Positions 1,855 through 34,450 of a stretch of 34,693 nt of DNA are shown piece after piece. A program made the position numbers and the translations under genes. Every line of letters starts with the position of its first letter. The stretch's first letter is position 1. This DNA is from Candidatus Doudnabacteria bacterium CG10_big_fil_rev_8_21_14_0_10_41_10 (GTDB lineage Bacteria; Patescibacteriota; Doudnabacteria; UBA920; 2-01-FULL-50-11): NCBI GenBank assembly GCA_002773695.1, contig PFAJ01000053.1, positions 1 through 34,693 of the forward strand, given 5' to 3'. The notes under the pieces were generated by a model, which worked only from the letters and a program-made list of their open reading frames with translations, was not told where the DNA came from and searched no databases.

Positions 1855-2406
1855 ATGAAGTTGCTTGTATTCTTTTGAGAAGCGAAAAATCCGGTTGTTA
1901 TCCATGTTACTGGAATATTAGTAGTTGTGATTATGGTAAGTAGTCTATTCATAGCCTACTCCCACCGCCAAAAAGTCACACGCGCTGATACCGGCCGCTA
2001 TAACATTGTGGTCATTAACAAAAGCCAAATCGATCTTGGCAATACGGATATTACATTTTACAAACTCCCGGCGGGAAGACTACCCGAATACAAAAAGGAA
2101 CGGATAGTCGGGTTATTGAAAATTCCGATGGGTCTAGTAAACAGGTAGCCGATGACAGTTCAATTGTCCGAATCGCCGTTCGGCGGGAAAACAGACTGCT
2201 TGATTGTCGCCAAAGTCTCGCTTAACAAAAAACATTGGCCACATCCTTTTTTTATTCAGCTTCCTTTTTCACAAGGCACAAACACCTTTGAGATTGATGC
2301 TGTTCGGACACAACTCGCCACCAAAGAAGTAGTTATTCCATTCTTTGTCCACAAAGGGAACAAATATCGATCTACCAGCCTTGAAGACATCCTAAAAGGA
2401 CACTGA
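1855..2406 (+). pseudogene. Single-frame membrane-anchored protein gene with in-frame TGA and TAG
   Basis: An ATG at 1855 has a good SD and a promoter. The frame meets TGA at codon 8 (1876-1878) and TAG at codon 98 (2146-2148) but otherwise stays open to TGA at 2404-2406, giving 184 codons in all. Read through, the product has a short N-terminus, a hydrophobic anchor (VVIHVTGILVVVIMVSSLFI) and a roughly 145-residue extracytoplasmic-type domain. A clear terminator follows. The ORFs starting at 1927 and 2152 are segments of this one frame, and neither has an SD of its own. The true final stop is also TGA, so TGA is not simply a sense codon here. Either a recently inactivated gene or one needing readthrough. 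Family not recognised. Confidence 0.7.
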
Positions 2407-2408
2407 CA

Positions 2409-2437
2409 CCCGACGGTTCGCTCGTTGGGATTTTTTT
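2409..2437 (+). terminator. Terminator after the 1855 gene
   Basis: The stem CCCGACG / CGTTGGG (seven pairs including one G-T) has a 7-nt loop and is followed by A then seven T residues, two bases after the stop codon. Confidence 0.75.
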
Positions 2438-2593
2438 CCAAAAAAAGCCTCCCGATAAACTTTTTTTTTAACAAAAACCAAACCTTTAACAGTATAATTT
2501 GTACCTATAGATAATTATTGCCATGTATAAATAAACAAACTCACAAAAAAAACTTTCATGAGGCGAGTGTCACCCTTGTTCAGCGCCTATACC

Positions 2594-2625
2594 AAAAGGC
2601 CCGCTTCACAGCGGACCTTTTTACT
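2594..2625 (-). terminator. Terminator of tuf (potentially bidirectional)
   Basis: GGTCCGCT and AGCGGGCC form a stem on the minus strand with a 4-nt loop and T-runs outside. The A-run on the other side would also allow termination in the rightward direction. Confidence 0.75.
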
Positions 2626-2651
2626 ACACACCGTTTACCGAGGTATGGTAC

Positions 2652-3833
2652 TTATTTTATAATTTTGGTGACAACACCAGCACCCACTGTATGACCGCCT
2701 TCGCGGATCGCGAATTTCATCTTTTCCTCCAAAGCGATTGGAGTAATAAGTTTGATGGTTACATTTACAGTGTCACCAGGCATTACCATTTCAGTACCTT
2801 CTGGCAAGATTACATCTCCGGTTACGTCAGTTGTTCGGATGTAAAATTGTGGTTTGTAGCCGGTAAAAAATGGAGTATGTCGTCCACCTTCATCTTTGCT
2901 TAAAACATACACTTCAGCAGTAAATTCGGTATGAGGAGTAATCGTTCCCGGTTTTGCCAAAACCTGCCCTCGTTCCACTTCGTTTTTCTTGGTTCCACGA
3001 AGCAAAATCCCAGCGTTGTCTCCGGCTTGACCTTGATCCAACTCTTTGTTGAACATCTCAATGCCGGTAACGACAGATTTAGCGGTTTCTTTAATACCAA
3101 CGATTTCTACTTCATCGTTGAGTTTAATAATCCCTCGTTCAATACGTCCGGTAACAACTGTTCCCCGGCCTTCAATAGTGAAGATGTCTTCAATAGGCAT
3201 TAAGTAAGGTTGATTGGTTGGACGTTTTGGCTCGGGTATAAATTCATCTACCGCCTTCATCAATTCTTCGATTTGTTTTCCTGCTTCGGCGTCGCCTTCC
3301 ATTGCCTTTAAAGCGGAACCGCGAATGATTGGAGTATCTTTTCCGGGAAATTCGTATTTATCCAATAGTTCTCGAACCTCTTCTTCTACCAAGTCGATAA
3401 GTTCTTTATCGTCTACTGTGTCTACTTTGTTTAAAAAGACCACAATTTTTGGCACACCTACTTGGCGGGCAAGCAAGATATGCTCTCGGGTTTGAGGCAT
3501 CGGACCGTCAGCGGCGGAAACCACCAAAATAGCTCCGTCCATCTGGGCGGCGCCGGTGATCATATTTTTGATATAGTCGGCGTGACCCGGCGCATCGATG
3601 TGCGCGTAGTGACGCTTTTCAGTTTCGTACTCAACGTGAGACACGTTGATGGTGATTCCGCGCTCCTTTTCCTCCGGAGCGTTGTCGATGGAATCAAAGT
3701 TCCGCTCTTTGGCAAAACCCTTCTTGGCCAATACTTTGGTAATGGCGGAAGTCAAAGTGGTTTTTCCATGGTCCACGTGACCAATAGTGCCGATATTCAA
3801 GTGCGGTTTTGTTCGTGAAAATTTTTCTGCCAT
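2652..3833 (-). CDS. tuf: Elongation factor Tu, 393 aa
   Basis: EF-Tu is the GTPase that delivers aminoacyl-tRNA to the ribosomal A site. The length matches the family. G-motifs are intact: GHVDHGKT (residues 18-25), the DAPGHADY region and NKVD. The C-terminal domains end in the conserved pattern [10 protein letters not shown] near the C-terminus. The stop is TAA and a strong terminator follows. It is the last gene of the leftward str operon, separated from fusA by a Phd-like gene and repeat elements, so it may also have its own promoter in the repeat-rich gap at 3834-4197. Confidence 0.98.
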
Positions 3834-3892
3834 ATTTTTGGAAAAATTTGATTAATTATTCTCAGCCTCTTTTTTCGTATTGAGCTGTAGCT

Positions 3893-3942
3893 GTAGCGGA
3901 AACCTTCAGGTTTCCAGATGGAAGTTTAAAAACTTCCGCTAC
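3893..3942. repeat. 50-nt three-way-junction palindromic repeat
   Basis: The closing stem GTAGC (3893-3897) / GCTAC (3938-3942) encloses two hairpins: GGAAACC-TTCA-GGTTTCC (3898-3915) and GGAAGTT-TAAA-AACTTCC (3920-3937), joined by AGAT. Every stem pairs perfectly. It lies upstream of tuf on the tuf transcript strand side. The architecture suggests a REP-type dispersed element or a structured leader. Confidence 0.75.
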
Positions 3943-3994
3943 GTTTACATTTATGTCCATCTCAAATCCGCAAAAGACAAATTAATTATTTTAG

Positions 3995-4135
3995 TTTTGT
4001 CATCCCTACCAAAATGCCCACCTCGACTCGCCGTCTGTGATGAGGCGGGGAGGGCATTCCTTCCCCATCGACTCAAAGTCAACTCTTCGACGAAGTTTAC
4101 CCTTGAAGCGAAATCGAAGGCTCGGGATGACAAAA
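3995..4135. repeat. REP-like element with 12-bp terminal inverted repeats
   Basis: TTTTGTCATCCC (3995-4006) and GGGATGACAAAA (4124-4135) are exact inverted copies enclosing about 117 bp with no convincing gene. The same GTCATCCC...GGGATGAC termini recur at other intergenic sites in this window. Confidence 0.7.
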
Positions 4136-4197
4136 TGCATATTCGTAAGATTTATTATAAAGGATTGTCACTCCCAAGTCAAATCCACCATTTCCAA

Positions 4198-4530
4198 CTA
4201 CTCCTCAATCGACTCGATATACAAATGATCGGAAAATTTCTTGGTTGAAAATGAAGGTATTTCAGAGGCTGTATACAACTCCTCATCAACGGATTCAATA
4301 TCCCCTGTTTCATCTTTTTGAATATCGATAATTTGCTTATTGAGGGATTCGGTTTGCTCGGCCAGAGATTCAAGTTTCTGCGAGAGTCGGTCGAAATGGT
4401 CTCCGGATTTTAGCTTTTCGTATTCTTCTATTGACATCACGACCAATTGCGCATCACCGTTTTGATCCACCACAAAAACTTTTCCGTTTTCTTCTTTTGC
4501 CAGTTTAATAATTTTTTCTAATTTTTTCAT
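4198..4530 (-). CDS. Phd/YefM-like small protein, 110 aa
   Basis: The N-terminal half (LEKIIKLAKEENGKVFVVDQ, then VVMSIEEYEKL) resembles the DNA-binding fold of Phd/YefM antitoxins, in which a short basic helix region is followed by 'xxPxxVxxSxxxYexL'. The C-terminal half is acidic and coiled-coil-like, with repeated SLxEQ/SLNKQ patterns. The second of two adjacent ATGs (4530) is chosen because it gives the usual family start MKKLEK. No adjacent toxin gene is visible, so this is probably a solitary regulator rather than half of a toxin-antitoxin pair. It sits between fusA and tuf in the str operon and is flanked by REP-like repeats. The family assignment is moderate. Confidence 0.6.
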   Translation of the reverse strand: MKKLEKIIKLAKEENGKVFVVDQNGDAQLVVMSIEEYEKLKSGDHFDRLSQKLESLAEQTESLNKQIIDIQKDETGDIESVDEELYTASEIPSFSTKKFSDHLYIESIEE

Positions 4531-4540
4531 CATATTATTA

Positions 4541-4613
4541 TCATCGCGAGAAGCGTCAACGACATAGCGATCCCGAAATTAGATGGGATTGCTTCTCTTC
4601 GCTCGCAATGACA
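4541..4613. repeat. REP-like palindromic repeat between fusA and the Phd-like gene
   Basis: The segment starts TCATCGCGAG and ends CTCGCAATGA, near-inverted termini. It encloses GATCCC/GGGAT half-sites, typical of bacterial interspersed palindromes. A related sequence occurs at 24117-24400. Confidence 0.6.
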
Positions 4614-4651
4614 GAAAATAGTTTCCTACAAGCTAAAAAGTTAACAGTTTT

Positions 4652-6745
4652 TTACTTATGCCCAACCCGAACTTTACCAACCCCTTCAACAATCTTTTCT
4701 TGAACATTTTTAGGCACCTTTTCATAGTGATCAAATTCCATGGTAAAAATCGCTTGGCCTTGGGTCATAGATCGAACTTGTGTCGAATAACCAAACATTT
4801 CAGCTAAAGGAACTTTCGCATCAACAACCTTGCGGCCATTTTGGTCTTCCATACTTTCAATTCTTGCACGCTTTGAATTGAGATCCCCGGTTACGGTTCC
4901 CATAAACTCTTCCGGCATAATTACTTCCAATTTCATAATTGGTTCGAGCAAAACCGGGCCACCTCTGCGAATTCCATCGGCAAACGCTTTACTTGCCGCA
5001 ATTTTAAAAGCGATTTCGGAGGAGTCTACTTCGTGGAAAGAACCATCATACAAAGTAACTTTGACATCCACCACAGGGTAGCCTGCCAAAACCCCAGACT
5101 GCGCCGTTTCCAAAACTCCTTTTTGTACTGCTGGAATATATTCTTTGGGGATAGTACCGCCAACCACCTCGTTGATAAATTCGTTTCCTTTCTCTTTATC
5201 ATCCTGGGGTTCCAAACGTAAATAAACATGTCCATACTGACCACGACCTCCGGACTGACGGATGTATTTATTTTCCACTTCAATTTTCTGTGTAAGTGTT
5301 TCTTTGTAAGCAACTTGCGGCGCGCCGGTCGTGGCTTCCACTTTAAATTCCCGTTTCATCCGATCTACTAAAATTTCCAAATGCAACTCGCCCATTCCGG
5401 AAATAATCGTCTGCCCAGTTTCCTCATCGCCACGAATCTTAAACGTCGGGTCTTCTTCGGCAAGTTTGTTCAATGCGATTCCCATCTTTTCTTGGTCAGC
5501 TTTGGTTTTTGGCTCGATAGCAATGGAAATAACCGGTTCCGGAAAAATAATTTTTTCCAGGATTAACGGGGCATCTTCGTCACAAAGAGTGTCTCCGGTA
5601 ATAGTATCTTTCGGGCCAACCAAAGCGGCAATTTCTCCGGCATATACCTCTTTTACTTCTTCACGTTTATCAGCGTGCAATCGCACAATTCTCCCCACTC
5701 TTTCTTTTTTATTATTTCGGGTATTCAGTACATAGCTTCCGGTTTTAAATACCCCGGAATATACCCGGAAAAAAGCTAATTTTCCGACAAATGGATCTGT
5801 CGCGATTTTGAAAGCAATAGCCGCCAACGGGCCTTCGTCAGTAGGCTTCAGAAGCATTTCTGAACCGTCTTCTGCGTTATTGGCTTTCACAGGCGGCAAA
5901 TCGGTAGGCGCCGGGAGATAAGTAGTGACAGCATCGAGCAAAGTTTGCACTATTACACCCCGACCGTCGCCGCCAAATACCGGGAAAAAATCAGCGGTTA
6001 AAGTACTCTTTCGAATACCTTCCACCAACTCTTCTTTTGTTAATCCCTCACCGGCCAAATATTTTTCCATCAATGAATCATCCGCTTCAACGACTTTTTC
6101 TATCAGCTTGTCGCGGTACTCTTGAACTATTTCTTTCATGTCAGCCGGAATCTCTCCCTCAATCAATTTCTTGTCTTTAAAATCTGTATACGTGTAAGCT
6201 TTCATTTTTACCAAATCCACAACGCCGTTAATATCTTTTTCATGGCCGATTGGCAACTGTACCGGAAGTGCGTTTTTGGACAATCGTTTATGAATAGATT
6301 CCAAACTTTTATAAAAATCTCCGCCGGTTTGGTTGATTTTATTTATAAAACACATCCGGGGGACGTTATATTTGGTGGCCTGGTGCCATACGGTTTCCGA
6401 CTGCGGCTCCACACCCATCTTGCCGTCGAACACGGTGATGGCGCCGTCTAGAACGCGCAAAGATCGCTCAACCTCTACGGTAAAATCCACGTGGCCGGGG
6501 GTATCGATAATATTTATCCGATGATCTTTCCAAAAACAAGTTGTGGCGGCGGAGGTAATAGTAATTCCCCGCTCGCGCTCCTGCTCCATCCAGTCCATCT
6601 GGGTATCTCCCTCGTGCACTGAACCGATTTTATGAATTCGTCCGGTGGTATACAAAATCGCCTCGGTCGTAGTGGTTTTACCGGCGTCGATGTGAGCGAT
6701 AATGCCGATATTTCTTGTTTTTTCTAGCGAGTATTCTCGTGGCAT
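4652..6745 (-). CDS. fusA: Elongation factor G, 697 aa
   Basis: EF-G is the translocation GTPase of the ribosome. The length matches the family. The P-loop [12 protein letters not shown] is near residue 18, the switch II motif DTPGHVDF follows, and the NKxD-type motif reads FINKIN, a variant in which the usual Asp is Asn. The later domains are complete, with the GRGQYGHV and [19 protein letters not shown] regions recognisable and the C-terminus ending VRVGHK. It lies downstream of rpsG in the str operon. I see no frameshift. The NKIN variant deserves comparison with close relatives but need not abolish guanine recognition. Confidence 0.97.
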
Positions 6746-6754
6746 TCTATTTTT

Positions 6755-6855
6755 TCATCCCGGACCCCGATCCGGGATCTAGGTTCATTAATTTAAAATT
6801 TAATATGAGGAATCCCTCGACTCCTTTGATATAAAGTCAGAATCGCTCGGGATTA
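6755..6855. repeat. REP-like repeat between rpsG and fusA
   Basis: It opens TCATCCCGG, contains the hairpin CCCGGA cccga-type loop TCCGGG at 6759-6776, and closes with GCTCGGGATTA. No gene is present. It lies inside the str operon and so may be transcribed. Confidence 0.6.
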
Positions 6856-6867
6856 CAGCTAAAGCTG

Positions 6868-7359
6868 TTATTTTTTCTTCTTTCCAAATCTTGCAAAGTG
6901 AGCAAACGCTTTGTTGGCCTCGGCCATGCGGTGGGTGTCTTCTTTTTTCTTAAACGCCGCGCCCTGTTTATTATACGCTTCCATCAATTCTTCTGCCAAA
7001 CGCACATGCATTGGTTTTCCTTTTTTCGATCGAGCGGCCGTAATCAACCAGCGCATTCCCAAAGTGGTTCGTCGAGGCTCAAACACTTCCATCGGCACTT
7101 GGTAGTTTGCGCCACCGACTCGTCGGCCTTTGATTTCTACTAAAGGAGAAATATTTTTCAGCGCGGCATCGAAAATCTGCCGAGGTTCAGTTTTCATTTT
7201 TTCTTTAATATAGTCAAAAGACGTATAAACAATCTTTTGCGCGACCGATTTCTTCCCACGCTCCATTATGTAATTAATAAGCTTGGCTACTTTTACATTG
7301 TTGTAGCGTGGGTCTGGAGCAATTTTGTGTCTTTTATACGATCTTGCTTTTCTTGGCAT
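6868..7359 (-). CDS. rpsG: 30S ribosomal protein S7, 163 aa
   Basis: S7 is a primary 16S rRNA-binding protein that nucleates assembly of the 30S head. The start [20 protein letters not shown] is typical. The conserved region [11 protein letters not shown] (residues ~79-89) and the MRWLI segment are intact, followed by the KKK-rich C-terminus. It is slightly longer than the usual ~156 residues. It lies between rpsL and fusA in the usual operon order. Confidence 0.97.
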
Positions 7360-7430
7360 AAAAATAGTTATTGTGTGTCTTCGACTAGCTTAGAAAATAA
7401 TACTTCCTATAGCGGAGTCGAGGGGTTATA

Positions 7431-7850
7431 TTATTCTTTAGGTCTCTTGGCTCCATACTTGCTCCGGCTTCGTCTTCGGTTTTCAACGCCAGCCGTATCG
7501 AGCTTTCCTCGGACAATATGATACCTCACGCCAGGCAAATCCTTTACCCGGCCGCCACGAATCATTACAACGGAGTGTTCTTGCAAGTTATGACCAACTC
7601 CCGGGATGTAGGCAGAAACCTCCATCCCATTGGTCAACCGGACACGGGCGACTTTTCGCAAAGCCGAGTTTGGTTTTTTTGGAGTCACCGTGCTTACCTT
7701 GATACAAACTCCTCGTTTAAAAGGTGAACCTTTTGGTAAATCAACCGGTTTTTGTTTAATCAAATTCAGCGCCTGCGCTAATGCTGGCACTTTCGACTTT
7801 TTCTTAATCTGTATTCGCCCTTTACGGACTAGTTGGTTGATTGTTGGCAT
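7431..7850 (-). CDS. rpsL: 30S ribosomal protein S12, 139 aa
   Basis: S12 sits in the decoding centre. The start is placed at 7850 because [12 protein letters not shown] is the universal N-terminus; the frame is open further upstream, but that part reads through AT-rich intergenic repeat sequence. The conserved motif [11 protein letters not shown] and the later [13 protein letters not shown] are present. The lysine of TPKKPNS is the classical streptomycin-sensitive residue. It is the first gene of the leftward str operon. Confidence 0.97.
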
Positions 7851-8238: not shown

Positions 8239-8260
8239 GTGTCAACATGTAGGAGGTTTC

Positions 8261-8518
8261 ATGATTCCAAAAACCAGATCCGAGAAAAAAATGGAACAGC
8301 GGCTCAGAAAAAAATTCCCGGAGTCGATTCCGACGGAAGTTGCTGTACAAATCGTCTTATTGGAACGACAAATCGGGGTTTGATTATATCGCGCGGAGAC
8401 AGCAACAACCGTCGATGAAAAGTTAGTGGTGTTGGCAGAGATGAGGGGCTACCACGGACTCGATGCAAGTCCTTTCATTTCACTCTCCATCGCTGGCTTA
8501 GATCCAAACGAAAAGTAA
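8261..8518 (+). pseudogene. Short gene (86 codons) with one in-frame TGA
   Basis: The ATG at 8261 has a strong SD and promoter. The frame is open for 40 codons, meets TGA at 8381-8383, then stays open to TAA at 8516-8518, where a strong terminator follows. The conceptual product is charged and soluble: a basic start (MIPKTRSEKKMEQRLRKKFP), a middle part EVAVQIVLLERQIGV before the TGA, and VVLAEMRGYHGLDASPF after it. The matched expression signals at both ends indicate that the whole span is one gene. The family is not recognised. A nonsense mutation (for example CGA, GGA or TGG to TGA) or readthrough could explain it. Confidence 0.65.
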
Positions 8519-11937: not shown

Positions 11938-11971
11938 CTATAGTTTCATAGTACGTACTATAAAACTATAG
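11938..11971. promoter_or_regulatory. 34-bp near-perfect palindrome downstream of the TrpR-like gene
   Basis: The left half reads CTATAGTTTCATAGTAC; the right half is its reverse complement with one mismatch. It has the same length, ends (CTATAG) and centre (GTACGTAC) as the palindrome at 12544-12577. It could be a second operator for the adjacent regulator, affecting rpmB or convergent transcription, or the end of a small mobile unit. Confidence 0.7.
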
Positions 11972-12005
11972 CCGAAAAATAAACGGCAAAAAAATATAAG
12001 CAAAA

Positions 12006-12521
12006 CTATAACAATTTTTTCAGTTGCCTATAAAGCGGAGGTTTAATGCTCGATTTGCGGAGTGTTTGCAGTACCCTTTTCATTTGTTGTTTCTGTTTTT
12101 TCGAAGAAGATGCCACTATTTCTTCAATCAACAATTCCGGCCAAAAATATGCAGGGTATTTTCTTTTAAACGAATCCCATTCCCTGCGCTGTTTCAGAGG
12201 TTTAATTTCCACGTCACCGATCCTCGAGACAACCATCCTAAAACCCTCACCGGAGGAATCTAACCAAACCGCGACCCGGGCAATAGTGCTCTGACTAACT
12301 TTTAAAGCCCGTCAAATTTGAAAATAAGTCATTCCGTTTATCAAGGATTTTGCTATTTGGAGTCTTATTGCCAGCATTTCCAATTCTTTAGGGCCCAAAA
12401 GATCTTTAAGAAACTCTGCCGACTCGCCGGGTTTTTTAATCTCAACAAGCGCCTGACAAAATTCCAAAAGCAAACGATCTCTCTCATTATCATCAATTTT
12501 TCTCCTTGGATACTTTACCAT
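12006..12521 (-). pseudogene. TrpR-like (YerC-type) regulator with in-frame TGA inside the helix-turn-helix
   Basis: The first 69 codons give the family's usual N-terminus: MVKYPRRKIDDNERDRLLL, then a region ending DLLGPKELEMLAIRLQIAKS. The turn-helix segment MTYFQI is followed by TGA (12314-12312) and then RALKVSQSTIARVAVWL in the same frame. From my knowledge of the YerC/TrpR-related family, the TGA falls where a polar residue (often Arg, Lys or Ser) of the recognition motif is expected, so CGA to TGA is one simple explanation. The frame then runs without stops to TAA at 12006. The gene is flanked by matching 34-bp palindromes, one immediately upstream, consistent with autoregulation. If TGA terminates, a 69-residue dimerisation fragment without DNA binding would be made. 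Confidence 0.8.
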
Positions 12522-12543
12522 ACACCACTCTTCATTCTTCGGT

Positions 12544-12577
12544 CTATAGTATCATGGTACGTACCATGATACTATAG
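12544..12577. promoter_or_regulatory. Perfect 34-bp palindromic operator upstream of the TrpR-like gene
   Basis: Each half reads CTATAGTATCATGGTAC and the halves are exact reverse complements. It ends 22 bp before the regulator start and overlaps possible -10 elements (TATAGT, TACTAT). This is the expected position for an autoregulatory operator. Confidence 0.8.
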
Positions 12578-12630
12578 AAGTAAATAATTAAAATCGGAAA
12601 AATTATCTCAACGAGTTAACTGAACAAATT

Positions 12631-20575: not shown

Positions 20576-20580
20576 ATACT

Positions 20581-20630
20581 TTACGAATTACGAATTGTTA
20601 CGAATTTACGAATCATAAATTTACGATTCT
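20581..20630. repeat. Short tandem repeats (TTACGAAT units)
   Basis: TTACGAAT and close variants occur four to five times in 50 bp upstream of glpX. Related CGTAT/ATTCG strings occur at 21008-21022 on the other side of the GxxExxY gene, so the gene lies between similar low-complexity repeats. Confidence 0.6.
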
Positions 20631-20678
20631 TTTATAGTGGACCTTTCTTGGAGAAAAGTAAACTAAAATTCCAAGTTT

Positions 20679-21008
20679 CTAGTCTTTGCTGACCAAGTAT
20701 CGATAAACTTGCTCAATATGGGTCTTTGAAAAATTATCACCCTTCTTCAACTCTACCACTATCTTTCCAGATATTAAAAAGTCGAAATAATTTTTACCTA
20801 CCACTTTTTCCTGATAAACAACAGGGGAATAGACTTGCTCTTGAAATTTAAAACCTCTTTTCTTCAACTCCTCCCCAACTGCTTTCTGATACGTCCTCTC
20901 GGCGTGCCCGTGACCCAGTCTGTTGTATACATCATATACAGCTCCAACGATAGCAAAACTCTCTTCTGGGTAAACCAAATCGGTTCTTCACAGTTCAGCT
21001 CTTGCCAT
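20679..21008 (-). pseudogene. GxxExxY-family protein with in-frame TGA at codon 7
   Basis: The frame starts ATG GCA AGA GCT GAA CTG, then TGA (20990-20988), then RTDLVYPEESFAIVGAVYDV in the same frame. The family motif GHAERTY (GxxExxY) and the following EELKKRGFKFQEQV, VVYQEKVVGKNYFDFL and IVVELKK segments are intact to the TAG at 20679. Family members commonly start in the style 'MxxxELKRxDLxYPELSYxIVG', so the TGA stands where Lys or Arg is expected. A TTG at 20978 could restart translation with loss of only ten residues, so the protein may still be made. The family's function is not established; it has a nuclease-like 'D...VVELK' core. It lies between tkt and glpX with different flanking repeats. 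Confidence 0.8.
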
Positions 21009-21023
21009 ATTCGTATATTCGTA

Positions 21024-22937
21024 TTAATTTGTATTTCGTAAAGCCAGTACTTTTTTCACTATCGCCGTCGAGTCAATCTCCTCATAGCGCAAAAGTTCTT
21101 CCGGCTTTCCTGACCGAGCAATTTTTCGAACCGCTAATATATAAACTGGCACCTGAACTTTTACGAGTTCAGCCAAACAATACAAAACCGCTTCACCAAT
21201 TCCCCCCTCGTGATAATGATCCTCCACCGTAATAATCGCTTTGGTTTCTTGCGCCGCTTTTTTTATAGTTTCCACGTCGATCGGTTTTACCGAATACAAA
21301 TCGATAACACGAATATTTATATTCTTTTTCCGCAACTCATCGTAAGCTTTCAATGCTTCGTGGAGGGTGATACCGGCACCGATAACAGTAACCTTATCTT
21401 TTGAAGATTTTTTTAAAACTTTACTTCCACCAATTTTAAACTTTTCCGTCGATTTATATACTACAGGTGTCGCGCTCCGAGTGGTTCTAATAAAAACATT
21501 TCCTTTATGCTCCGCTGCGGCTGCGGTAAGTTTTTCCGCGGACACCGCGTCAGAAGGATACAAAACAGTACTTCCATGAACAGCTCGAAACATAGAAATA
21601 TCTTCAAGCGCCATTTGGGAAGCCCCGTCTTCGCCAATTGAAACCCCGGCATGCGAGCCGACAAATTTAATATTGGCGTTGGAATATTGACTCATTCTTA
21701 TCTGGTCAAACGCCCGAGTAAAAAACGCGGCGAAAGTGGAAACGAAAGGAATTTTTCCGCGGCGTGAAAGACCCAAGGCTGTTCCCACCATATTTTGCTC
21801 GGCGATAAACATTTCAAAAAATCTTTCCGGCGCAAACTTTTTCAGAGTTTCAGAACACGTCGAATTGCTGGTTTCCGCGTCCAATGCCACTACTCGATGA
21901 TCTGCCTCCGCAATTTTTACAAGCGCATCCCCATAAGCTTTTCTGGTTGCGACATTGTCCCCCAGTTTGTAATTTGGATTTTGAAATTTGGATTTTATTT
22001 TTAATTTGGATTTTGAAATTTGAATTTTTTCTGGCTTTACAATCGTTCCCCGAATCGACTTATCAATTTCTCCCAATTCCTCCACTGCGTCCTTGAACTG
22101 CTCCTGATTGAGCACTTTCCCATGCCATCCATCTTTGTCTTCCAAAAATGAGACTCCTTTCCCTTTCAAAGTTTTTGCGATTATCATCATGGGTTTATCC
22201 CCTTCTGCACAAGGAGGGATGGCCGTTTTAGCGGCCAGGGTGGTGGGAGTCGCTTTATTAAAAGCTTTTAGAATTTCCCCCATATCATGCCCATCGATAA
22301 CTACAGTTTCCCATCCAAATGCCTTGGCTTTATTTTCATAAACTTTCATATCATAACCATGCAATGTCTCTCCTCGCTGACCCAAACGATTCACGTCTAT
22401 TATTCCAACCAAATTATTTAATTTATAATACGTAGCGATTTCCATGGCTTCCCAGACCGATCCTTCGGCAACTTCCGAGTCGCCCATTAACACATAAGTT
22501 TTATATGGAAGTTTTTCTAGTTTAGCATTGAGCGCCATACCAAGGCCAATAGACAATCCTTGTCCCAGCGATCCTGTCGCTGCCTCGGTATACGGAAATT
22601 GTAAAGTTGGGTGGCCTTCGAGTCGACTGGTAAACCTGCGAAAATTTTTAAGTTCCCCCTCTCTGATTAAAGAAAAGGTGGAGGGAGAATTCCGGGCAAC
22701 CGCCCACAAAGCATAAAAAAGAGGGCTGGCATGCCCTTTCGAAAATATTAATCGATCGTTGTTTAAATATTTCGGATCTTCTAAATCAAATCGAAACATC
22801 CATCCAAACATCAACCCGACCATCAGGTCCGTTGCAGACAGCGAAGACGTGAGGTGTCCGGAACCGGCTTTGGTTGTCGATGCTAGAATATAATATCGAA
22901 TTAACTTAGCGATTTTCTGCAGTTTGTTTTTGTCCAT
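21024..22937 (-). CDS. tkt: Transketolase, full length, 637 aa
   Basis: Transketolase transfers two-carbon units between sugar phosphates using thiamine diphosphate. The N-terminal domain has KGHASPLFYALWA, GSLGQGLSIGLGMA and the TPP/metal motif GDSEVAEGSVWEA. The pyrimidine domain begins around residue 325 (VATRKAYGDAL) and contains the catalytic Glu region FIAEQNMVG. The C-terminal domain has TVEDHYHEGGIGEAV. Between the first two domains is a Lys/Ile/Ser-rich linker (about residues 305-323) encoded by two copies of a 20-bp direct repeat. CPR genomes often split transketolase; here it is one polypeptide. Confidence 0.95.
   Translation of the reverse strand: MDKNKLQKIAKLIRYYILASTTKAGSGHLTSSLSATDLMVGLMFGWMFRFDLEDPKYLNNDRLIFSKGHASPLFYALWAVARNSPSTFSLIREGELKNFRRFTSRLEGHPTLQFPYTEAATGSLGQGLSIGLGMALNAKLEKLPYKTYVLMGDSEVAEGSVWEAMEIATYYKLNNLVGIIDVNRLGQRGETLHGYDMKVYENKAKAFGWETVVIDGHDMGEILKAFNKATPTTLAAKTAIPPCAEGDKPMMIIAKTLKGKGVSFLEDKDGWHGKVLNQEQFKDAVEELGEIDKSIRGTIVKPEKIQISKSKLKIKSKFQNPNYKLGDNVATRKAYGDALVKIAEADHRVVALDAETSNSTCSETLKKFAPERFFEMFIAEQNMVGTALGLSRRGKIPFVSTFAAFFTRAFDQIRMSQYSNANIKFVGSHAGVSIGEDGASQMALEDISMFRAVHGSTVLYPSDAVSAEKLTAAAAEHKGNVFIRTTRSATPVVYKSTEKFKIGGSKVLKKSSKDKVTVIGAGITLHEALKAYDELRKKNINIRVIDLYSVKPIDVETIKKAAQETKAIITVEDHYHEGGIGEAVLYCLAELVKVQVPVYILAVRKIARSGKPEELLRYEEIDSTAIVKKVLALRNTN
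21971..22022. repeat. Direct repeat encoding the transketolase interdomain linker
   Basis: AATTTGGATTTTGAAATTTG occurs at 21971-21990 and again at 22003-22022 (period 32). It lies in-frame between the two transketolase domains. Similar AT-rich strings occur outside genes, e.g. just upstream of rpsL. Confidence 0.8.
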
Positions 22938-23099: not shown

Positions 23100-23723
23100 C
23101 TACACTCTCACAAGCTTGTTGCCAGCGGCTATTTTCTCTTTTTTGAGAACCTTCATTCTTTCGGAAGCAAGCTGGATAAGAGCCTTAAGATTCTCACAAG
23201 CGGTCAGCCCTCCATCCATTGCCACCAGTTCTCGTTTGTTTTCGAGGTGGTGCCAAACAAAAACGGTGCCGTCCGAATCGTGTGACGCAATCCCACAAGA
23301 AAAGGAGATCCCTTCCTCTGTTGCGATCTCTTCAATCCTTATGGCAAGACCGTCAGCTCCTTCAGTGGTCACGATGACAAACTCGTCTCCGCCCATCCTA
23401 CCAACCAGATCAGCCTCCCTCAAACGAATGATGGCGGAAAAAGAGATGATAAGCCTGTCACCTTCCGCGTATCCTCCTACGGAACTGTCGTTGAGCGCCT
23501 TCAGACCATCAAGATCGAGAAACAGAATATAGCAAGTCTGCCCCCGGGCTTGCGCTCTGCGTAGCCTGACTGCCGACCGCCGGAGAAATTCTCGCTTGTT
23601 AAAGACCCGGGTCATGTAATCTTGCTCAACCAAAACCCGCAAGTCTTCACCCCTCCACCAGACGACCTTGAGATAAACCCAAAGTCCGTCAAAAACTCTC
23701 CAAAGGAACTTCGATAAAAACAT
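23100..23723 (-). CDS. GGDEF-domain diguanylate cyclase-like protein, 207 aa
   Basis: The GGDEF domain makes cyclic di-GMP from two GTP. The N-terminal ~25 residues are hydrophobic/aromatic (FLWRVFDGLWVYLKVVWW) and may anchor the protein to the membrane. The domain starts DYMTRVFNKREF, continues with the metal-binding FLDLDGLKALND, and has an intact GGDEF at residues 111-115. RxxD (R102-D105) precedes GGDEF by exactly five residues, the canonical product-inhibition I-site. SCGIA is also conserved. The start is fixed by GGAGG 5 nt before the ATG. A consensus promoter lies about 220 bp upstream. It is a stand-alone cyclase; no EAL, HD-GYP or PilZ partner is visible. Confidence 0.9.
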   Translation of the reverse strand: MFLSKFLWRVFDGLWVYLKVVWWRGEDLRVLVEQDYMTRVFNKREFLRRSAVRLRRAQARGQTCYILFLDLDGLKALNDSSVGGYAEGDRLIISFSAIIRLREADLVGRMGGDEFVIVTTEGADGLAIRIEEIATEEGISFSCGIASHDSDGTVFVWHHLENKRELVAMDGGLTACENLKALIQLASERMKVLKKEKIAAGNKLVRV

Positions 23724-25755: not shown

Positions 25756-26391
25756 ATGGCAGTTAACCGGCAAGGTCTAAGCGACTTTCTCCTGCAACAA
25801 GGAGTGCCGCAAGACAAAGTTAAAAACGCGATGGCTCTGGTAGAGCCGTTGTTCCTGGTTGCCGAAGGAAAGAGAAAAATTCTCTTACCCCCAACCGAGG
25901 AAACCAAGCCGGAAGTCCTCGCTGCGCTGCAAGGACTTTTCGGGCAGGAGCAGGCACGCAAAGTCCTGCTTGTTTCGTCAAGCGAGCCTTTTGCCCGGCC
26001 CGAATGGATGACGGAAGAATCCTACCAAAAGGCTGTCCAGGCCACGCTCGTGAACACGCTCGGAGCCACGCTCATGAACACGCTCTTGGACACGCTCGAG
26101 GACACGCTCGGAGACATGCTCTGGGTCATGCTCGGGGCCAAGCTCGAGGACATGCTCCGGGTCACGCTCGTGAACACGCTCTTGAACATGCTCTGGGGCA
26201 CGCTCGAGGACACGCTCTGGGACATGCTCTGGGGCACGCTCTTTTTCTACTTCGGCTTTCTGCTGGCCGGAGAAGAACACGAAGAGCGGGTGGCAAAGCT
26301 CGCGGCTTTGACGCAAGTCATTGCCAAAGTCTGGTTGCCTTTCGGTGTGAAAAGTGACGAGCCGGGCTGCTGGCTCGTTATGGTTGCGTGA
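25756..26391 (+). CDS. Protein with 17 tandem xTLx tetrapeptide repeats, 211 aa
   Basis: The start at 25756 is fixed by AAGGAGG 4-5 nt upstream. Residues 1-95 form a soluble, helical-looking domain (MAVNRQGLSDFLLQQG at the start; a PEVLAALQGLFGQEQARKVL region later). From residue 96 there are 17 consecutive four-residue units of the form x-[TM]-L-x, such as NTLG, DTLE and DMLW, 68 residues in all. A tail of about 48 residues follows, beginning FFYFGFLLAGEEHEERVAKL. No known fold is recognised; the period of 4 could build an amphipathic helix with a slowly turning hydrophobic stripe, or a solenoid. It ends in TGA before a terminator and is bracketed by 20-bp direct repeats, suggesting an acquired cassette. 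Codon choice in the repeats is notably GC-rich. Confidence 0.8.
   Translation: MAVNRQGLSDFLLQQGVPQDKVKNAMALVEPLFLVAEGKRKILLPPTEETKPEVLAALQGLFGQEQARKVLLVSSSEPFARPEWMTEESYQKAVQATLVNTLGATLMNTLLDTLEDTLGDMLWVMLGAKLEDMLRVTLVNTLLNMLWGTLEDTLWDMLWGTLFFYFGFLLAGEEHEERVAKLAALTQVIAKVWLPFGVKSDEPGCWLVMVA
26041..26244 (+). repeat. 17 tandem copies of a 12-bp unit
   Basis: Units follow the pattern nnCAyGCTCnnG (for example AACACGCTCTTG). The run is exactly 204 bp without indels, and all changes keep the Leu codon CTC. One unit has AAG (Lys) instead of ACG/ATG. The regularity suggests recent expansion by slippage or recombination with selection on the repeat. Confidence 0.9.
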
Positions 26392-27724: not shown

Positions 27725-28123
27725 CGTCTTTATCTAACAATTCTTTAAAAAAGCTGTCGAAATTTTCCTTCGACATTTTTTTTATTTCTTCCAAGGTCCA
27801 CCACCGATACTCATCGTGGTCTTCGTCCAAAACCGGCGTTCCTTCTATTGCACCTATGTATGTGAGACGAACCACGTGCCGGTCTTTCACGCGAAGAATG
27901 TCCTGCGCCGCAACCAGCTTTGGCTCTTCAATCAAGTTAAGCCGTGTTTCTTCCTTAATCTCACGCTTGAGATTTTCAAGAAGTGGAGTGCCGGGATTGA
28001 TCCGGCCGCCGACAATATCCCACTGGCCACCAACCTCTGGGTATTTTTTTCCGAACGCTTCAACAACAAAAATTTCCCTTCGTTATTTTTTAGCAATACT
28101 TTTACTCCGACTTATAGTTGCAT
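27714..28123 (-). pseudogene. Nudix hydrolase gene with in-frame TAA and a one-base frameshift
   Basis: The ATG at 28123 follows the HD gene's stop by one base. The frame reads MQL, TAA (28114-28112), then VGVKVLLKNNEGKFLLLKRS, then SEK. At an A7 run (28050-28044 on the minus strand) the homologous frame changes: it continues KYPEVGGQWDIVGGRINPGT and the Nudix box residues REIKEET to the stop at 27714. Eight A residues would restore a single frame. The box GX5EX7REUXEEXGU is present except that the Gly after EE is Arg (EETRLNL). So two lesions interrupt an otherwise well-conserved nucleotide-sugar/NTP pyrophosphohydrolase-type gene. A -1 slip at A-AAA-AAT could bypass the second but not the first. 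Confidence 0.8.
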
Positions 28124-28124
28124 A

Positions 28125-28748: not shown

Positions 28749-28756
28749 AAATTTAT

Positions 28757-28817: not shown

Positions 28818-28871
28818 TAAACTAATCTGGACCACGGATTTCCCACTGTGACATCTAAGATGACATTCCTA

Positions 28872-29414: not shown

Positions 29415-29423
29415 GCAAACATT

Positions 29424-29541
29424 TGTCATCCCCGCGAAAGTGGGGATCCAGGTTCTCAACTTTGCCTGCAAGATGGCAGGCTCAAACTATAAAGAAGTCT
29501 AAATCCCGTATATCCGCCTGAGGCGGATTAAGGGATGACAG
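29424..29541. repeat. REP-like repeat
   Basis: Ends TGTCATCCCCGCG and AGGGATGACAG, with hairpins TCCCCgcgaaagtGGGGA and ATCCGCCTGAGGCGGAT. It fills the gap between the CYTH gene and the chimeric gene at 29547. Confidence 0.7.
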
Positions 29542-29546
29542 CTAAA

Positions 29547-30299
29547 TCATAAATAATGAATCCTAATTCCTAATGATTTCGCCGTTTCGTGTTCATCGCG
29601 AGCGCCAAATGAGCTTTCCCAATTCGGCGCCATAAAAAGGTCGGTAATATGCCCGCTTCCCAAAACATCTCGCCAAAAACCAAAAAAATCCTTTTGTCCG
29701 TAGCCTTTTTCAATCAGCCGATGGAGCGTGCCATCCACATAAACTTCCGGCGCGGAAAATACCGGGAACTGGTGCTCGAGACGCAAGGCCTGCGTGTGAT
29801 CAAGAAGAATTTTCAAATTTTCGTCAATCTTGTCATAACCCTGCGAAGAAATCAAACCGGCCACGTAACCGGCTCGGTCGTGACTTTCCCGCGCTTTGGC
29901 GAGCTCCGCAAGCAAAGCCTCTTGGATTTCTTCCAAGGTTTCTAAATCTTTCAAGGTTTCATATAAAATGTCTTTCATAAAATTTTTCCCTTTAACCCCC
30001 TTCTTCCTATCGTTGTGGGTCCATTGTTCGACGGTGCGGCCTGCTGCCAAAGACAGACAGGAATATTCGGTGAGCGCGGCCTTCGTGGCCACGATGCTCG
30101 TCAGCGTCACCATCTTCCATGCATACAGTGCGATCTTTGTATTGATCGGGGAATTGGTGACGGCAACGGTGTTGCCATTGCCTGCCTGGTCAGTTGCCGA
30201 GGCGATGGCTGGCGGACCAGTGTTGTTCGCTGCGTTGGCCACGGTGACGCAAACCGCGACTATGGCCAACAGAAGTAGACTCTTTCGGAAAGTTAACAT
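29547..30299 (-). CDS. Chimeric gene: signal-peptide segment fused to DUF4406-like domain, 250 aa
   Basis: The start at 30299 is fixed by GAGGAG 8 nt upstream. Residues 1-24 form a clear signal peptide (LLLLAIVAVCVTVANA). Residues 25-107 are Ala/Thr-rich with a second hydrophobic stretch (MVTLTSIVATKAAL). From residue 108 an unrelated cytoplasmic-type domain begins with its own Met (ATG at 29978): MKDILYETLKDLETLEE, later YVAGLISSQGYDKIDENL, and ending MAPNWESSFGARDEHETAKS, the pattern of DUF4406/nucleoside 2-deoxyribosyltransferase-like proteins. Two genes may have been joined, possibly by an indel at a GGGGG run just before the second Met. The C-terminal domain may also be made separately. 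It ends in TGA. Confidence 0.65.
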   Translation of the reverse strand: MLTFRKSLLLLAIVAVCVTVANAANNTGPPAIASATDQAGNGNTVAVTNSPINTKIALYAWKMVTLTSIVATKAALTEYSCLSLAAGRTVEQWTHNDRKKGVKGKNFMKDILYETLKDLETLEEIQEALLAELAKARESHDRAGYVAGLISSQGYDKIDENLKILLDHTQALRLEHQFPVFSAPEVYVDGTLHRLIEKGYGQKDFFGFWRDVLGSGHITDLFMAPNWESSFGARDEHETAKSLGIRIHYL

Positions 30300-30480
30300 T
30301 GTTAATCTCCTCAAGTTACGCTCGTGCGCCCTATGTTTGCAGTCGTGCGTAAGACTGCGCATGAACTTGAACATCATTACCAACTTTTAGGGCAAATTAA
30401 GCGCGAGTAATCGTACCTAATTCGCCCCAAAAGTTTCCATTTCATATTCAAATTGCTCCCCCTTTTTGTTTATTATTTGA

Positions 30481-30510
30481 ATTATAATAAAAAATACTTC
30501 AGTTTTGCAA
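30481..30510 (-). promoter_or_regulatory. Promoter for the 30299 gene
   Basis: On the minus strand TTGCAA (30510-30505) and TATAAT (30486-30481) are 18 bp apart, leaving a leader of about 175 nt before the SD. The leader shows no recognised riboswitch. Confidence 0.55.
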
Positions 30511-30599
30511 ACATTTATCCCCAAAATAGCTAAATTTACCCTTTCTGCCCTTTTCTCCCATTATCCCTTTCACAAAGAATTCTTTCCTCCGCCCCATCC

Positions 30600-30675
30600 T
30601 GTCATGCTGATGACAATCAGGATTTCTGCTTTGAATAAAAAATCCCGGATCAAGTCCAAGATGACATACGGGATT
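30600..30675. repeat. REP-like repeat
   Basis: Begins TGTCATGCTGATGACA, with ATCCCGG inside and GGGATT near the end. It lies between the uxs-like gene and the upstream leader of the 30299 gene. Confidence 0.5.
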
Positions 30676-30680
30676 CAGCA

Positions 30681-31730
30681 TCACAAGGTAGCCTTAAAAT
30701 ACTCAATTGTCTTTTTCAAACCCTCTTCCAGTTGCACCTTCGGTTCCCAGGAAAGTTTTTCACGCGCTAAAGCAATATCCGGCTGTCGCTGCTGCGGATC
30801 GTCCTGCGGTAAAGCTTTATATATTATTTTTGATCTCGATCCGGTCAGCTCTAAAACTTGTTTTGCCAGTTCCAGCATTGTGAATTCTTCCGGGTTACCA
30901 ATATTCATTGGACCTGAAAAATCTTCCGTATTCATAAATCTCCAAAGAGCTTCTATCTCGTCAGTGACAAAACAAAACGATCTGGTTTGCGATCCATCAC
31001 CATAAATTGTAATATCTTCCCCTTTCAATGCCTGTAAAATGAAGTTAGAAACTACCCGGCCATCATCCTTGGCCATGCGAGGGCCATAGGTGTTAAAAAT
31101 TCTTGGTACTCGAATATCAACACCGTGCGCCCGATGATAGTCGAAGCACAAAGTCTCTGCCACTCTTTTTCCTTCGTCGTAGCAAGCGCGTGGGCCAATA
31201 GTGTTGACGTTACCCCAGTAACTTTCTTTTTGCGGGTGGACCAAAGGATCGCCATAAATTTCCGAGGTCGAGGCCTGCAAAACCGTCGCGTCATTTTTTT
31301 TAGCAAGCTCCAAAATATTTATCATACCGGCTGTATTGGTTTTGATGGTCGCAATCGCATTTTTTTGATAATGCACAGGACTTGCAGGGCATGCAAGATT
31401 GTAAATCTGATCGAGTTTTTCTTGCCCCCACCCCATGTCATTCCGGACGCCACGATGCGAAACGGAAGGCGATCCGGAATCCAGATTATTGTTCGAGCGA
31501 AGTCGAGAACCCGGATCCCCGATCGAGTCGGGGATGACAGAAAAGAGAGGCTCTATAATATCATGCTCGACAAATTTAAAATTTTCATTTTTTTCCAGAT
31601 GCTTGATATTCTCCCGGCTTCCGGTCAGCAAATTATCAAGACAAATAACCTTATCGCCTTTCGCGATAAGGTAGTCGCACAAATGAGATCCGATAAAACC
31701 CGCTCCTCCCGTAACTAAAATTGTTTTCAT
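30681..31730 (-). CDS. UDP-glucuronate decarboxylase-like NAD-dependent epimerase with in-frame repeat insertion, 349 aa
   Basis: An extended SDR enzyme: [10 protein letters not shown] (residues 8-17) binds [15 protein letters not shown] and [12 protein letters not shown] match UDP-glucuronic acid decarboxylase (UXS)-type proteins, and the catalytic Tyr-Lys motif occurs as YDEGKR after GPRACYDE. These make UDP-xylose or related nucleotide sugars for glycans. The family is usually about 310 residues; the extra length is an in-frame segment at residues 64-102, a repeat-derived peptide containing [13 protein letters not shown] and RNDMGWGQ. It falls between a strand (IIEPLF) and the conserved '[12 protein letters not shown]', in a loop before the substrate site. 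Termination is by TGA. It is 2 nt after the small membrane gene. Confidence 0.88.
31425..31541. repeat. REP-like element inserted in-frame in the decarboxylase gene
   Basis: The 117-bp insert begins (minus strand) TCTGTCATCCCCGAC and includes CGGAATGACATG near its end, the same termini as the intergenic REP-like repeats. It also contains the TTCGAGC/GTCGAGA block. It adds 39 codons without a stop. It resembles in principle the Rickettsia palindromic elements that insert within coding genes. Confidence 0.85.
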
Positions 31731-31732
31731 TC

Positions 31733-32008
31733 CTAATTGCTTAGGCTGTTACTGTCTGCCCACTCAATATATTTCTTGCAGTACTCAAAGCTTCCAAACT
31801 CCCCTTCGCTCTGCGATATAAATCCTTGGCACCTTGCGACCTCTTGTTTTATCAACTCATCGACCTCGGAATATTTTTTAGCGTTCTCAACCGCAGTCTT
31901 CGCCTCGGCACGCAATTTTACCGTTTCGTTGTACCAATAATAAAAATACGACCCGGCAAGGACCACAATCACGAAAACAACTAATTTAACTTTCCGTCTC
32001 CAGTTCAT
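31733..32008 (-). CDS. Small membrane-anchored hypothetical protein, 91 aa
   Basis: The start at 32008 (MNWRRKVK) is followed by one transmembrane segment ([18 protein letters not shown], residues ~9-26). A charged extracytoplasmic or periplasm-facing helical region follows, with two cysteines (ARCQGF and EYCKKY). It ends 2 nt before the decarboxylase start (stop TAG, then GA, then ATG), so translational coupling is likely. The family is not recognised. The upstream frame to 32044 has no SD. Confidence 0.6.
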
Positions 32009-32038
32009 GGTTATATTATAGATCAAAATCGTCAAGGT

Positions 32039-32160
32039 TGTCATCCCGGCCTACGAGCCGGGATCCAGGTTATCTGGTATTCGAGTGTGGCCAAGACCTG
32101 GATTCCCGATTCTGCCTTCGTAGCCACTTCGGCGAAGTAGGCTCAACTCGGGAATGACAT
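32039..32160. repeat. REP-like repeat
   Basis: Ends TGTCATCCCGG and CGGGAATGACA, with an inner hairpin ATCCCGG cctacgag CCGGGAT and GACCTGGATTCCCG matching its mirror CCAGG. It lies directly before the MITE at 32173. Confidence 0.7.
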
Positions 32161-32172
32161 TTAGAATATTAC

Positions 32173-32347
32173 AGGACTTACGCATTTGGCCAAGTTCGAG
32201 GCAAAACCGAGGATTTGTGCCGAAGGCGTAGTAGAACTACGACGAGGCCAAACCGCAGGTTTTAACGAAGAAATTGGCCAAACCCTTGCGGCGTTGTCGC
32301 CCCAAGGCCGGGCTTTGCCCGGCCGAGGCGGCAAGTGCGTAAGTCCT
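32173..32347. mobile_element. 175-bp MITE-like element with 12-bp terminal inverted repeats
   Basis: AGGACTTACGCA (32173-32184) and TGCGTAAGTCCT (32336-32347) are exact inverted copies; similarity continues inward with mismatches. ATATTA flanks both sides (32166-32171 and 32348-32353), separated on the left by one base, suggesting a target-site duplication. No transposase is encoded. The right flank overlaps the stop codon of the 33019 gene, so insertion happened at its 3' end without breaking it. Confidence 0.75.
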
Positions 32348-32350
32348 ATA

Positions 32351-33019
32351 TTATTTAATATACTCCTCCATCTCCATCCCAGTCTCTTTTTTTATAACCT
32401 CAATCATTCTATACATAACCGCGGTTAAAACAACAACGGTAGGCAAAACAATAACCGGAAACGAGAGGCCGGTCATTTTTCCAAGCTGTTGGTTGTATTC
32501 TGCTGTGCCCGGCTCCGCGTTCATGATAACAACCGCTAAAATAAAATTTAGTAAGGCGGAAAGTAAAAACGCCCCCGTCAAAAAATAAGTTGAACGCCCT
32601 AACATTTTTTCAAATCCAATGGGCTCTTTAAAACCATTTTGGATTTTTTCCAAATTAAAAATCTCCGAAAAAAATGTTTTTACCAAAGGAACGCGGGTTT
32701 TTTGAGAGAGCAATATCGCGGTCGCAATAATCAGCGGCACCGCGGTCTCTTTTACCACGATCCATTTTGTCGGAAGCTCCAATACCCCTATCCCACCTGT
32801 GAGCAATACCGAAATGAATCCCAATCCTGAAAAAAAGTTCACTTTCCGCTCTTTGGCAAAATCCCAAATACCATAAACAACCGGAAAAGCAAGCGCTGTG
32901 ACAAGACCCCAAAGCGGCCCCAAATAATTTTCGCCTGAAAATCGCGTCAAAACAACGACCGGGATAACGACGTTTATTAAAACATTAATCAACAAATTTT
33001 TGTGCTTTTTTTGTGGCAT
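32351..33019 (-). CDS. Polytopic membrane protein (VC0807-like), 222 aa
   Basis: Start at 33019 (MPQKKHKN). Five to six hydrophobic segments are visible: LLINVLINVVIPVVVLTRF, LGPLWGLVTALAFPVVYGIWDF, FFSGLGFISVLLTGGIGVLE, ETAVPLIIATAILLSQ, YFLTGAFLLSALLNFILAVV and LSFPVIVLPTVVVLTAVMYRM. The pattern and length resemble the VC0807 family of uncharacterised membrane proteins; function unknown. No strong SD. Its stop codon is in the MITE flank. Confidence 0.7.
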   Translation of the reverse strand: MPQKKHKNLLINVLINVVIPVVVLTRFSGENYLGPLWGLVTALAFPVVYGIWDFAKERKVNFFSGLGFISVLLTGGIGVLELPTKWIVVKETAVPLIIATAILLSQKTRVPLVKTFFSEIFNLEKIQNGFKEPIGFEKMLGRSTYFLTGAFLLSALLNFILAVVIMNAEPGTAEYNQQLGKMTGLSFPVIVLPTVVVLTAVMYRMIEVIKKETGMEMEEYIK

Positions 33020-33067
33020 ACAATAACTTGTGTTTAAGTATATCAAAGCGCAGACCATCTGCCAAAG

Positions 33068-33115
33068 TGTCAAAGGGAGTCTTTGACACTGCTATGTCAA
33101 AGACTCCCTTTGACA
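33068..33115. promoter_or_regulatory. Double palindrome: 21-bp perfect inverted repeat built from four TGTCAAAG motifs
   Basis: The left arm (33068-33088) reads TGTCAAAG-GGAGT-CTTTGACA; the right arm (33095-33115) is its exact reverse complement, across the 6-nt spacer CTGCTA. Each arm is itself a palindrome around a 5-bp centre. It lies between the VC0807-like gene and the 33164 gene. It could be a high-affinity operator for a dimeric regulator, a cruciform-forming repeat or a transposon-type end. Confidence 0.85.
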
Positions 33116-33163
33116 TCATGTATTCACAAATTGACTTGAATAAAAAACTTTTATGAGGAGGCT

Positions 33164-34450
33164 ATGAAGTACCTACCGGTGTACCTTTTGATTATTCTCG
33201 CCTGGATCGCGGTTTCCTCAAACCACATCCCGGGCCCGCCCGAAACTCCGGCATAGACCAAGATGCCTCTTGTGCCGACACAAGAGCTCCGGGATCGCTT
33301 CACTGCCATAAGAAGCACACTCAAGCACGGCAAAGTCACCTCAGTTGAAGAGTACGTCGCTCTTCTCCGGGAGAAGTACTTTCTTGAAGCGGTGTGTTTC
33401 CGCGCTGGAAGTGATTTCGCAATGCCTAAAGAAGATTTTTATCACTACAGATCGACTTGCTCGATCACGTCGATCTGGCTTAACCCTGATAGAGATCTTT
33501 TTTCTCGCTTACCAAAAAACCAGCACGAGTCGGCTCGAATCAAACTCGAAAAGATGTGCGCGGGGCTAACCCGTTATCCCGGAGACCCGGACAGGTTCGG
33601 GCCGTCGTTGCAAGCCTTCTTCCTCTGGGGTATACCGTACACCTGGATGTTCCTGTTCGTCCGCACCGAACAAGTCGGCCTCAACCCCTGGCTCCAGCTT
33701 TTCAACTGGAAATTCTGGATTTCAGGTTTCATCTGGGTATACGCTGTGTTCAAATACCCGGCCAAGGACCCGATAGTCGAGCTTCGCAGATCCATAAACA
33801 CGGTTTGCGGCACGCTCGTGATGGCAATCTCGGCTTTTGGAGCGGGACCTGTTGGGAAAACGCAAAAGCCGGATCCGACAAATAACGGCTCGCCTTTCAG
33901 ATTTACAATGGACTAGCGAAATACCTGGCAGGCTACCGGACCGGACCAGGACGATGGCTGGTCCGGATTTCTGCGGTTGACGCCGAAGTGGCGAGGATTC
34001 CTATCCGACACCGTCGCAACTTCCAACGGACCCCGTTGGAGCGTCTATGCGGTCGGGGGCTTAAGGGTTGTTGGATCTGACAAAAACCCCCTTCAAATCT
34101 ACCCAATGGCTGGTGCCCGTCGCCGAACTGACGGCGGTTTCAATGCGATCGCCGGCGCGCAGGTGTTCGTCAAACTGCCACGTGTCAGCATCGCCGCTCC
34201 GGTCAACCACGCGGAGCTTGCGTCAAAGCCATTTCTCGACTTCGGAGGATTCGTGACTACTCCGATAAAAGGGCGGCGGTCGGCCGGCGCGCAATATGGT
34301 GTGCGGGCGAATCGACAAAAAGGCCTTCACTCCTGGTTCCTTGCTCCGCTCATACAACGCAAGACATGGAAGGGCTTTTTAGAACTTGCTTTCCCCATCA
34401 CCCCTCAAAGCACATCGCTCAGACTTCGGTGGGTGATAACCGTGCCATAA
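33164..34450 (+). pseudogene. 428-codon exported/membrane protein gene with two in-frame TAG codons
   Basis: The ATG at 33164 has the SD GAGGAGG 4 nt upstream. The N-terminus is a signal-like segment (YLPVYLLIILAWIAVSS). The frame meets TAG at codon 30 (33251-33253) and at codon 251 (33914-33916), but otherwise stays open to TAA at 34448-34450, where a terminator follows. The middle part has aromatic hydrophobic segments (SLQAFFLWGIPYTWMFLFV; WKFWISGFIWVYAVF). The last 175 codons are glycine- and arginine-rich (MAGARRRTDGGFNAI, FGGFVTTPIKGRR), with alternating beta-strand-like patterns. The ORFs starting at 33263 and 33977 are parts of it. The family is not recognised. Either multiply mutated or dependent on TAG readthrough. 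Base composition is more GC-rich than neighbouring metabolic genes. Confidence 0.65.

Follow-up and report, generated by a model that had tools for sequence, protein, structure and literature searches.

The window that we analysed, a stretch of 34,693 nucleotides, is contig 65 of a 1.08-Mb draft MAG (94% complete, 70 contigs). This genome, which belongs to the Patescibacteria and is probably related to Doudnabacteria, very probably uses the standard code. We read genes C, D and E of the window as dispensable genes that were recently inactivated by point mutation and, in E, by a homopolymer deletion as well; the same probably applies to A and F. Ordinary gene decay is a firm explanation for C, D and E, a probable one for A and F and a weak one for B; that the products are non-functional and the decay recent, like the decay of A, B and F, we infer. 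The stop codons themselves are mostly ordinary recent damage in dispensable genes. The part worth following is not these stops but the cassette family behind gene D. The six genes represent several phenomena: two inverted-repeat cassettes (C and D), one conserved NUDIX gene (E) and three ORFans (A, B and F), one of which is a weak case.

The interrupted genes

Nine nonsense codons (two each in A, D and F, one each in B, C and E) and one frameshift, in E, are distributed over the six genes.

1855–2406, plus strand: gene A, ORFan with one membrane segment predicted by eye; stops TGA 1876–1878 (codon 8) and TAG 2146–2148 (codon 98)
8261–8518, plus strand: gene B, short ORFan with ribosome-binding site AGGAGG; stop TGA 8381–8383
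11938–11971: imperfect 34-nt palindrome on the 3′ side of C
12006–12521, minus strand: gene C, TrpR/YerC-like protein; stop TGA 12314–12312
12543–12578: perfect 36-nt palindrome on the 5′ side of C, matching the 3′ palindrome
20579–21043, minus strand: D cassette, about 465 bp, between transketolase (tkt) and glpX
20579–20613: terminal array CTTTACGAATTACGAATTGTTACGAATTTACGAAT of the D cassette, with the glpX start directly after
20616–21008, minus strand: gene D, GxxExxY/PDDEXK_3 protein; stops TGA 20990–20988 (codon 7) and TAG 20681–20679 (codon 110), both premature
21009–21043: opposite terminal array of the D cassette, overlapping the last tkt codons
27714–28123, minus strand: gene E, NUDIX hydrolase; stop TAA 28114–28112 (codon 4)
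28044–28050, minus strand: one-base deletion in a homopolymer of E (T7 on the plus strand), changing the frame
33164–34450, plus strand: gene F, GC-rich ORFan (54.5% G+C); stops TAG 33254–33256 (codon 31) and TAG 33914–33916 (codon 251)

All eight stops listed in a preliminary description of this DNA, and the frameshift in E, are present in the sequence. The ninth, TAG 20681 in D, had been missed and taken for the end of the gene; it is premature, and all 18 homologues that cover the point read through it. Terminators had been reported after most of the six genes. We find a good stem downstream of A, a weak stem downstream of B and, judged by eye, a plausible one after F, and none of note after C, D or E. 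The scarcity of frameshifts, described as unusual for decaying genes, reflects biased ascertainment: an ORFan is noticed only if one frame stays open, so an excess of nonsense codons over frameshifts is to be expected among cases found through open frames.

Chance was assessed with dinucleotide shuffles of each gene span, scored as the fraction with equally few in-frame stops. This fraction was 0.003 for A, less than 0.0005 for C, 0.003 for D, 0.0005 for F and 0.17, which is not significant, for B. The coding signal continues past most of the stops. B as a single broken frame is not above chance; since its few stops are not rare in shuffles, it should not be listed among the proven broken genes. 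For A and F there is a good case that they are coding, for B a weak one. An intrinsic coding scan supports C and is blind to A, B and F. The ribosome-binding site of A is good (GGAGG). No homologues of A, B or F were found in 116 other genomes, and none has a Pfam or PHROG match; a search for F in genome contigs, PHROGs and phages also gave none.

Comparison with orthologues is informative for the other three genes, in which Pfam domains span the stops and relatives carry sense codons at the stop sites. Gene C matches PF01371 (56.1 bits against a cut-off of 27), and its homologue L002 matches TIGR02531 (52.8 bits, cut-off 42.2). The stop in C falls inside the helix-turn-helix, where the commonest residue in homologues is Arg, and a CGA-to-TGA change would explain it. 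Gene E, with its two frames joined, matches PF00293 (65.8 bits, cut-off 21.1); the residue at its stop is Gln in 18 of 19 homologues, and here CAA-to-TAA would be a sufficient change. Relatives carry close homologues of C and E that are, almost without exception, uninterrupted. One NUDIX orthologue of E (L045, in G025) is itself interrupted once, by an in-frame TAG at another codon.

Gene D, read with X at the stops, matches PF13366 with 100.7 bits (cut-off 22), and its homologues L056 and L054 match TIGR04256 with 106.3 and 94.6 bits (cut-off 35). Most homologues that align at the first stop have Lys or Arg there; at the second the residue is Leu in 17 of 18 and Ile in one. Around this second stop the frame reads ...SKD-stop-KLGILVYFSPRKVHYKRIVNL-stop, and TAG 20681 is followed by 21 further codons that correspond to the C-terminal end of each of the 18 homologues extending this far. 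Six residues (G32, E37, Y40, D76, E86 and K88) are invariant in 16 intact homologues and all are present in the D frame, which thus keeps both the conserved GxxExxY and the D...ExK residues. Damaged copies of the family occur elsewhere: L069 and L070 are split over two frames, and copies with stops are found in several other genomes, G020 and G029 among them.

Genetic code and stops across the genome

The preliminary description had ruled out a simple code change, and we concur. RF1 and RF2, distinguished by motif, are both present and uninterrupted. Its observation that housekeeping genes are free of such stops also extends to a larger set, with 23 intact conserved genes of the window (6,695 codons) having zero in-frame stops. 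The search for suppressor tRNAs that it suggested detected no stop anticodon among 42 tRNA matches, 40 of them decoded by ARAGORN and two by eye, in this 94% complete genome. One of the two judged by eye is Asp-like (GTC); in the other the anticodon loop carries an insertion, and no stop anticodon is visible. The set found has no tRNA for Lys or Asn; since some expected tRNAs are missing, a suppressor could lie in the unassembled part. From the intact release factors, the absence of a stop-reading tRNA among the matches and the clean conserved genes, stop-codon reassignment was rejected.

Several tRNA loci are odd in their own right: a tRNA with an insertion of about 40 nt in the anticodon loop (L113:4235–4351), an aberrant Asp-like tRNA adjoining tRNA-Ile(UAU) (L124:3923–4081) and a second tRNA-Ile(UAU) (L122:7105–7177).

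In 20 stretches sampled from the same genome (281 kb) we found 15 stops with coding signal on both sides, several of which resemble ordinary gene junctions. This corresponds to 5 candidates per 100 kb, compared with 3 to 9 in three sampled relatives, so the genome is not unusual in this respect. One candidate is convincing, a TAA in place of Gln in an MGMT-like gene (L110:8454, contig 20); the samples from relatives yielded one homologue, in which this residue is Gln. A homology scan with relatives' ORFs, confounded by antisense ORFs, was used only as a pointer to this gene.

Alternative explanations

We consider it improbable that the lesions come from consensus or assembly error or from strains mixed together in the metagenome bin. 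The genome is indeed a draft in 70 contigs, the frameshift in E lies in a homopolymer, a typical error site, and isolated stops in otherwise intact genes are seen in other assemblies too, for example in the NUDIX gene of G025. Against this, C, D and E carry five lesions in 438 codons and the conserved genes none in 6,695, a distribution with a probability of about 1e-6 at uniform error, although the genes were chosen post hoc. Uniform error would be blind to the dispensability of genes, yet the lesions are concentrated in dispensable ones, and in its uniform form the consensus error offered earlier as an option is disfavoured. The frames are intact apart from their stops, and one study reports widespread in-frame stops in bacteria, with dN/dS below 1, which it attributes to frequent readthrough (PMC7918605); even so, it is highly improbable that regulated or tolerated readthrough keeps some of the genes working. 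TGA, TAG and TAA are all involved, D and A each have two different kinds of stop, E is frameshifted as well, no suppressor tRNA was seen and homologues have sense codons. Regulated readthrough, another of the earlier options, thus finds no positive evidence here. Since F has an ATG within 9 nt after its first TAG, opening a 217-codon frame, A has one within 6 nt after its TAG, opening 84 codons, and B is not above chance, these three could instead be short or adjacent reading frames that end at the stops and not single broken genes. We think this unlikely but plausible: by eye the internal starts lack a clear ribosome-binding site, and chance would rarely leave so few in-frame stops across all of A and F.

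The remaining earlier option, a wave of nonsense mutation as selection relaxed, finds support in C, D and E, each of which, like a pseudogene, has an interrupted frame where relatives are intact. C-to-T mutation makes stops from CAA, CAG, CGA and, on the other strand, TGG, and several of the stops could be explained as such changes. Essential genes would be clean because selection removes nonsense mutations from them. The dispensability of C and D would follow from their being cassettes of one gene each between inverted repeats, and the D-type cassette appears to enter operons just before a start codon. As each gene has few lesions, some low-level readthrough or a phase of polymorphism is conceivable.

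In-frame stops are known to be over-represented in mobilome genes (PMC7918605). The stops described there are of the same kind as ours, single nonsense codons in otherwise intact frames, enriched in mobile or accessory genes. None of the stops in the window is common to relatives, which is also true of the published ones.

A cassette family around gene D

We tested 37 gene spans of the window for inverted repeats between their flanks, and C and D alone have them. For D this is a property of the family: such repeats were found at 20 of 20 homologous loci and at 0 of 20 NUDIX controls, and in a wider scan 41 of 42 loci had matched terminal arrays, above 200 shuffles (the 20-locus and 42-locus sets partly overlap; besides the window they include L053–L071 and L204–L245). 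The loci come mainly from Patescibacteria, with other phyla represented too, and several close ones are from Candidatus Doudnabacteria. Most elements are about 460 bp long and have one gene each. Their ends consist of about four copies of a motif of about 7 bp (TACGAAT, TACTAAT, TACGGAT and others).

The two ends of one element agree at 72% of the variable motif positions, compared with 40% between elements, while the spacers hardly agree (41% versus 33%). As the motif differs between elements and matches between the ends of one, each nuclease may recognize its own ends. An RNA stem as the role of the ends was considered and is disfavoured, because the variable motif positions match within an element and the spacers hardly do.

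The position of the elements is also characteristic. Of 39 measured, 34 have an end no more than 20 nt from the start codon of a reading frame in the same orientation, compared with 18% of random positions, and the mirror orientation relative to the start codon was seen in one case among the 39. The tkt–glpX site is filled by D in the window and, also broken, in G029, and is empty with the genes adjoining in several genomes including G004, G007, G027 and G039. Conversely, the LOG–transaldolase site has a D-family copy in G035 and G037 and is empty in the window. Filled and empty sites of this kind are the pattern that insertion would leave, and from such comparisons of sequence we infer that D cassettes move or have moved. 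No target-site duplication was detected at D-family elements (mean 2.2 nt against 2.0 expected, P 0.075). Neither C nor D has a known transposase domain, and profile searches with D gave only PDDEXK_3/GxxExxY.

We tentatively propose, as a quite possible reading that falls short of probable, that GxxExxY genes, in Patescibacteria and in some other phyla, represent undescribed mobile cassettes of about 460 bp. Each would carry one PDDEXK-type gene between inverted arrays of TACGAAT-like motifs of about 7 bp and enter operons immediately upstream of a start codon, leaving the target unduplicated, each nuclease recognizing its own ends, with C perhaps a second family. The papers that we searched contained nothing relevant on GxxExxY or PDDEXK elements with inverted repeats; a description could exist under another name.

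The TrpR-like gene C may be such a second cassette family, with palindromic ends. Matched palindromic flanks occur at 13 of 15 long C-type loci, that of the window included, some of them only marginally above shuffles, and the palindromes around these long TrpR/YerC-like genes vary from copy to copy (window 11938–12578; L002–L013). An intact paralogue of C in the same genome (L116:2500–3006) has flank palindromes only marginally above shuffles. The palindromes of C-type loci could be operators rather than element ends.

Comparison with known elements

The closest analogue of the D cassette is the rRNA intervening sequence (IVS), of which that in the 23S rRNA of Coxiella is a 428-nt selfish element (PMC4990558). 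The two are alike in size (about 430–460 nt), in having one small ORF that is decaying and in their terminal inverted repeats. They differ in that the D cassette lies between protein-coding genes and its product is a GxxExxY protein instead of S23p, and in that its ends are motif arrays with scarcely matching spacers, whereas those of the IVS form a continuous stem. The copy in the window, at the tkt–glpX site and with a PDDEXK_3 profile, has neither the rRNA location nor the S23p ORF of an IVS. Insertion sequences and MITEs share with the D cassette a gene (or none) between terminal inverted repeats, several members per genome and empty sites in relatives. The D cassette accordingly has the terminal inverted repeats and the presence or absence at a site that mark an insertion sequence, but not the transposase, which C lacks too, or the target-site duplication.

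Other features of the window

A MITE-like stretch at 32165–32355 has inverted ends around AGGACTTACGCA; GGACTTACGCA has 4 copies in the 281-kb sample against 0.1 expected. At 893–1313 a 24-nt inverted repeat, 92% complementary, encloses 373 nt with no obvious gene. An ORF at 25756–26391 contains about 14 tandem 12-bp units that encode a four-residue protein repeat (GC3 0.71), and a secreted-looking ORF with its own ribosome-binding site (29547–30299) runs stop-free into a DUF4406-like gene. An intact GGDEF-domain gene (23100–23723; Pfam 63.6 bits) is unexpected in so small a genome.

Implications

Our analysis disposes of an attractive but mistaken example of stop-codon recoding or regulated readthrough among Patescibacteria. 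The GxxExxY genes, until now annotated by motif name only, resemble the cargo, and perhaps also the driving force, of a minimal element that recurs and has matched arrays at its ends. If this is true, they would provide a testable nuclease-driven mobile element with element-specific recognition of its ends and a target beside start codons.
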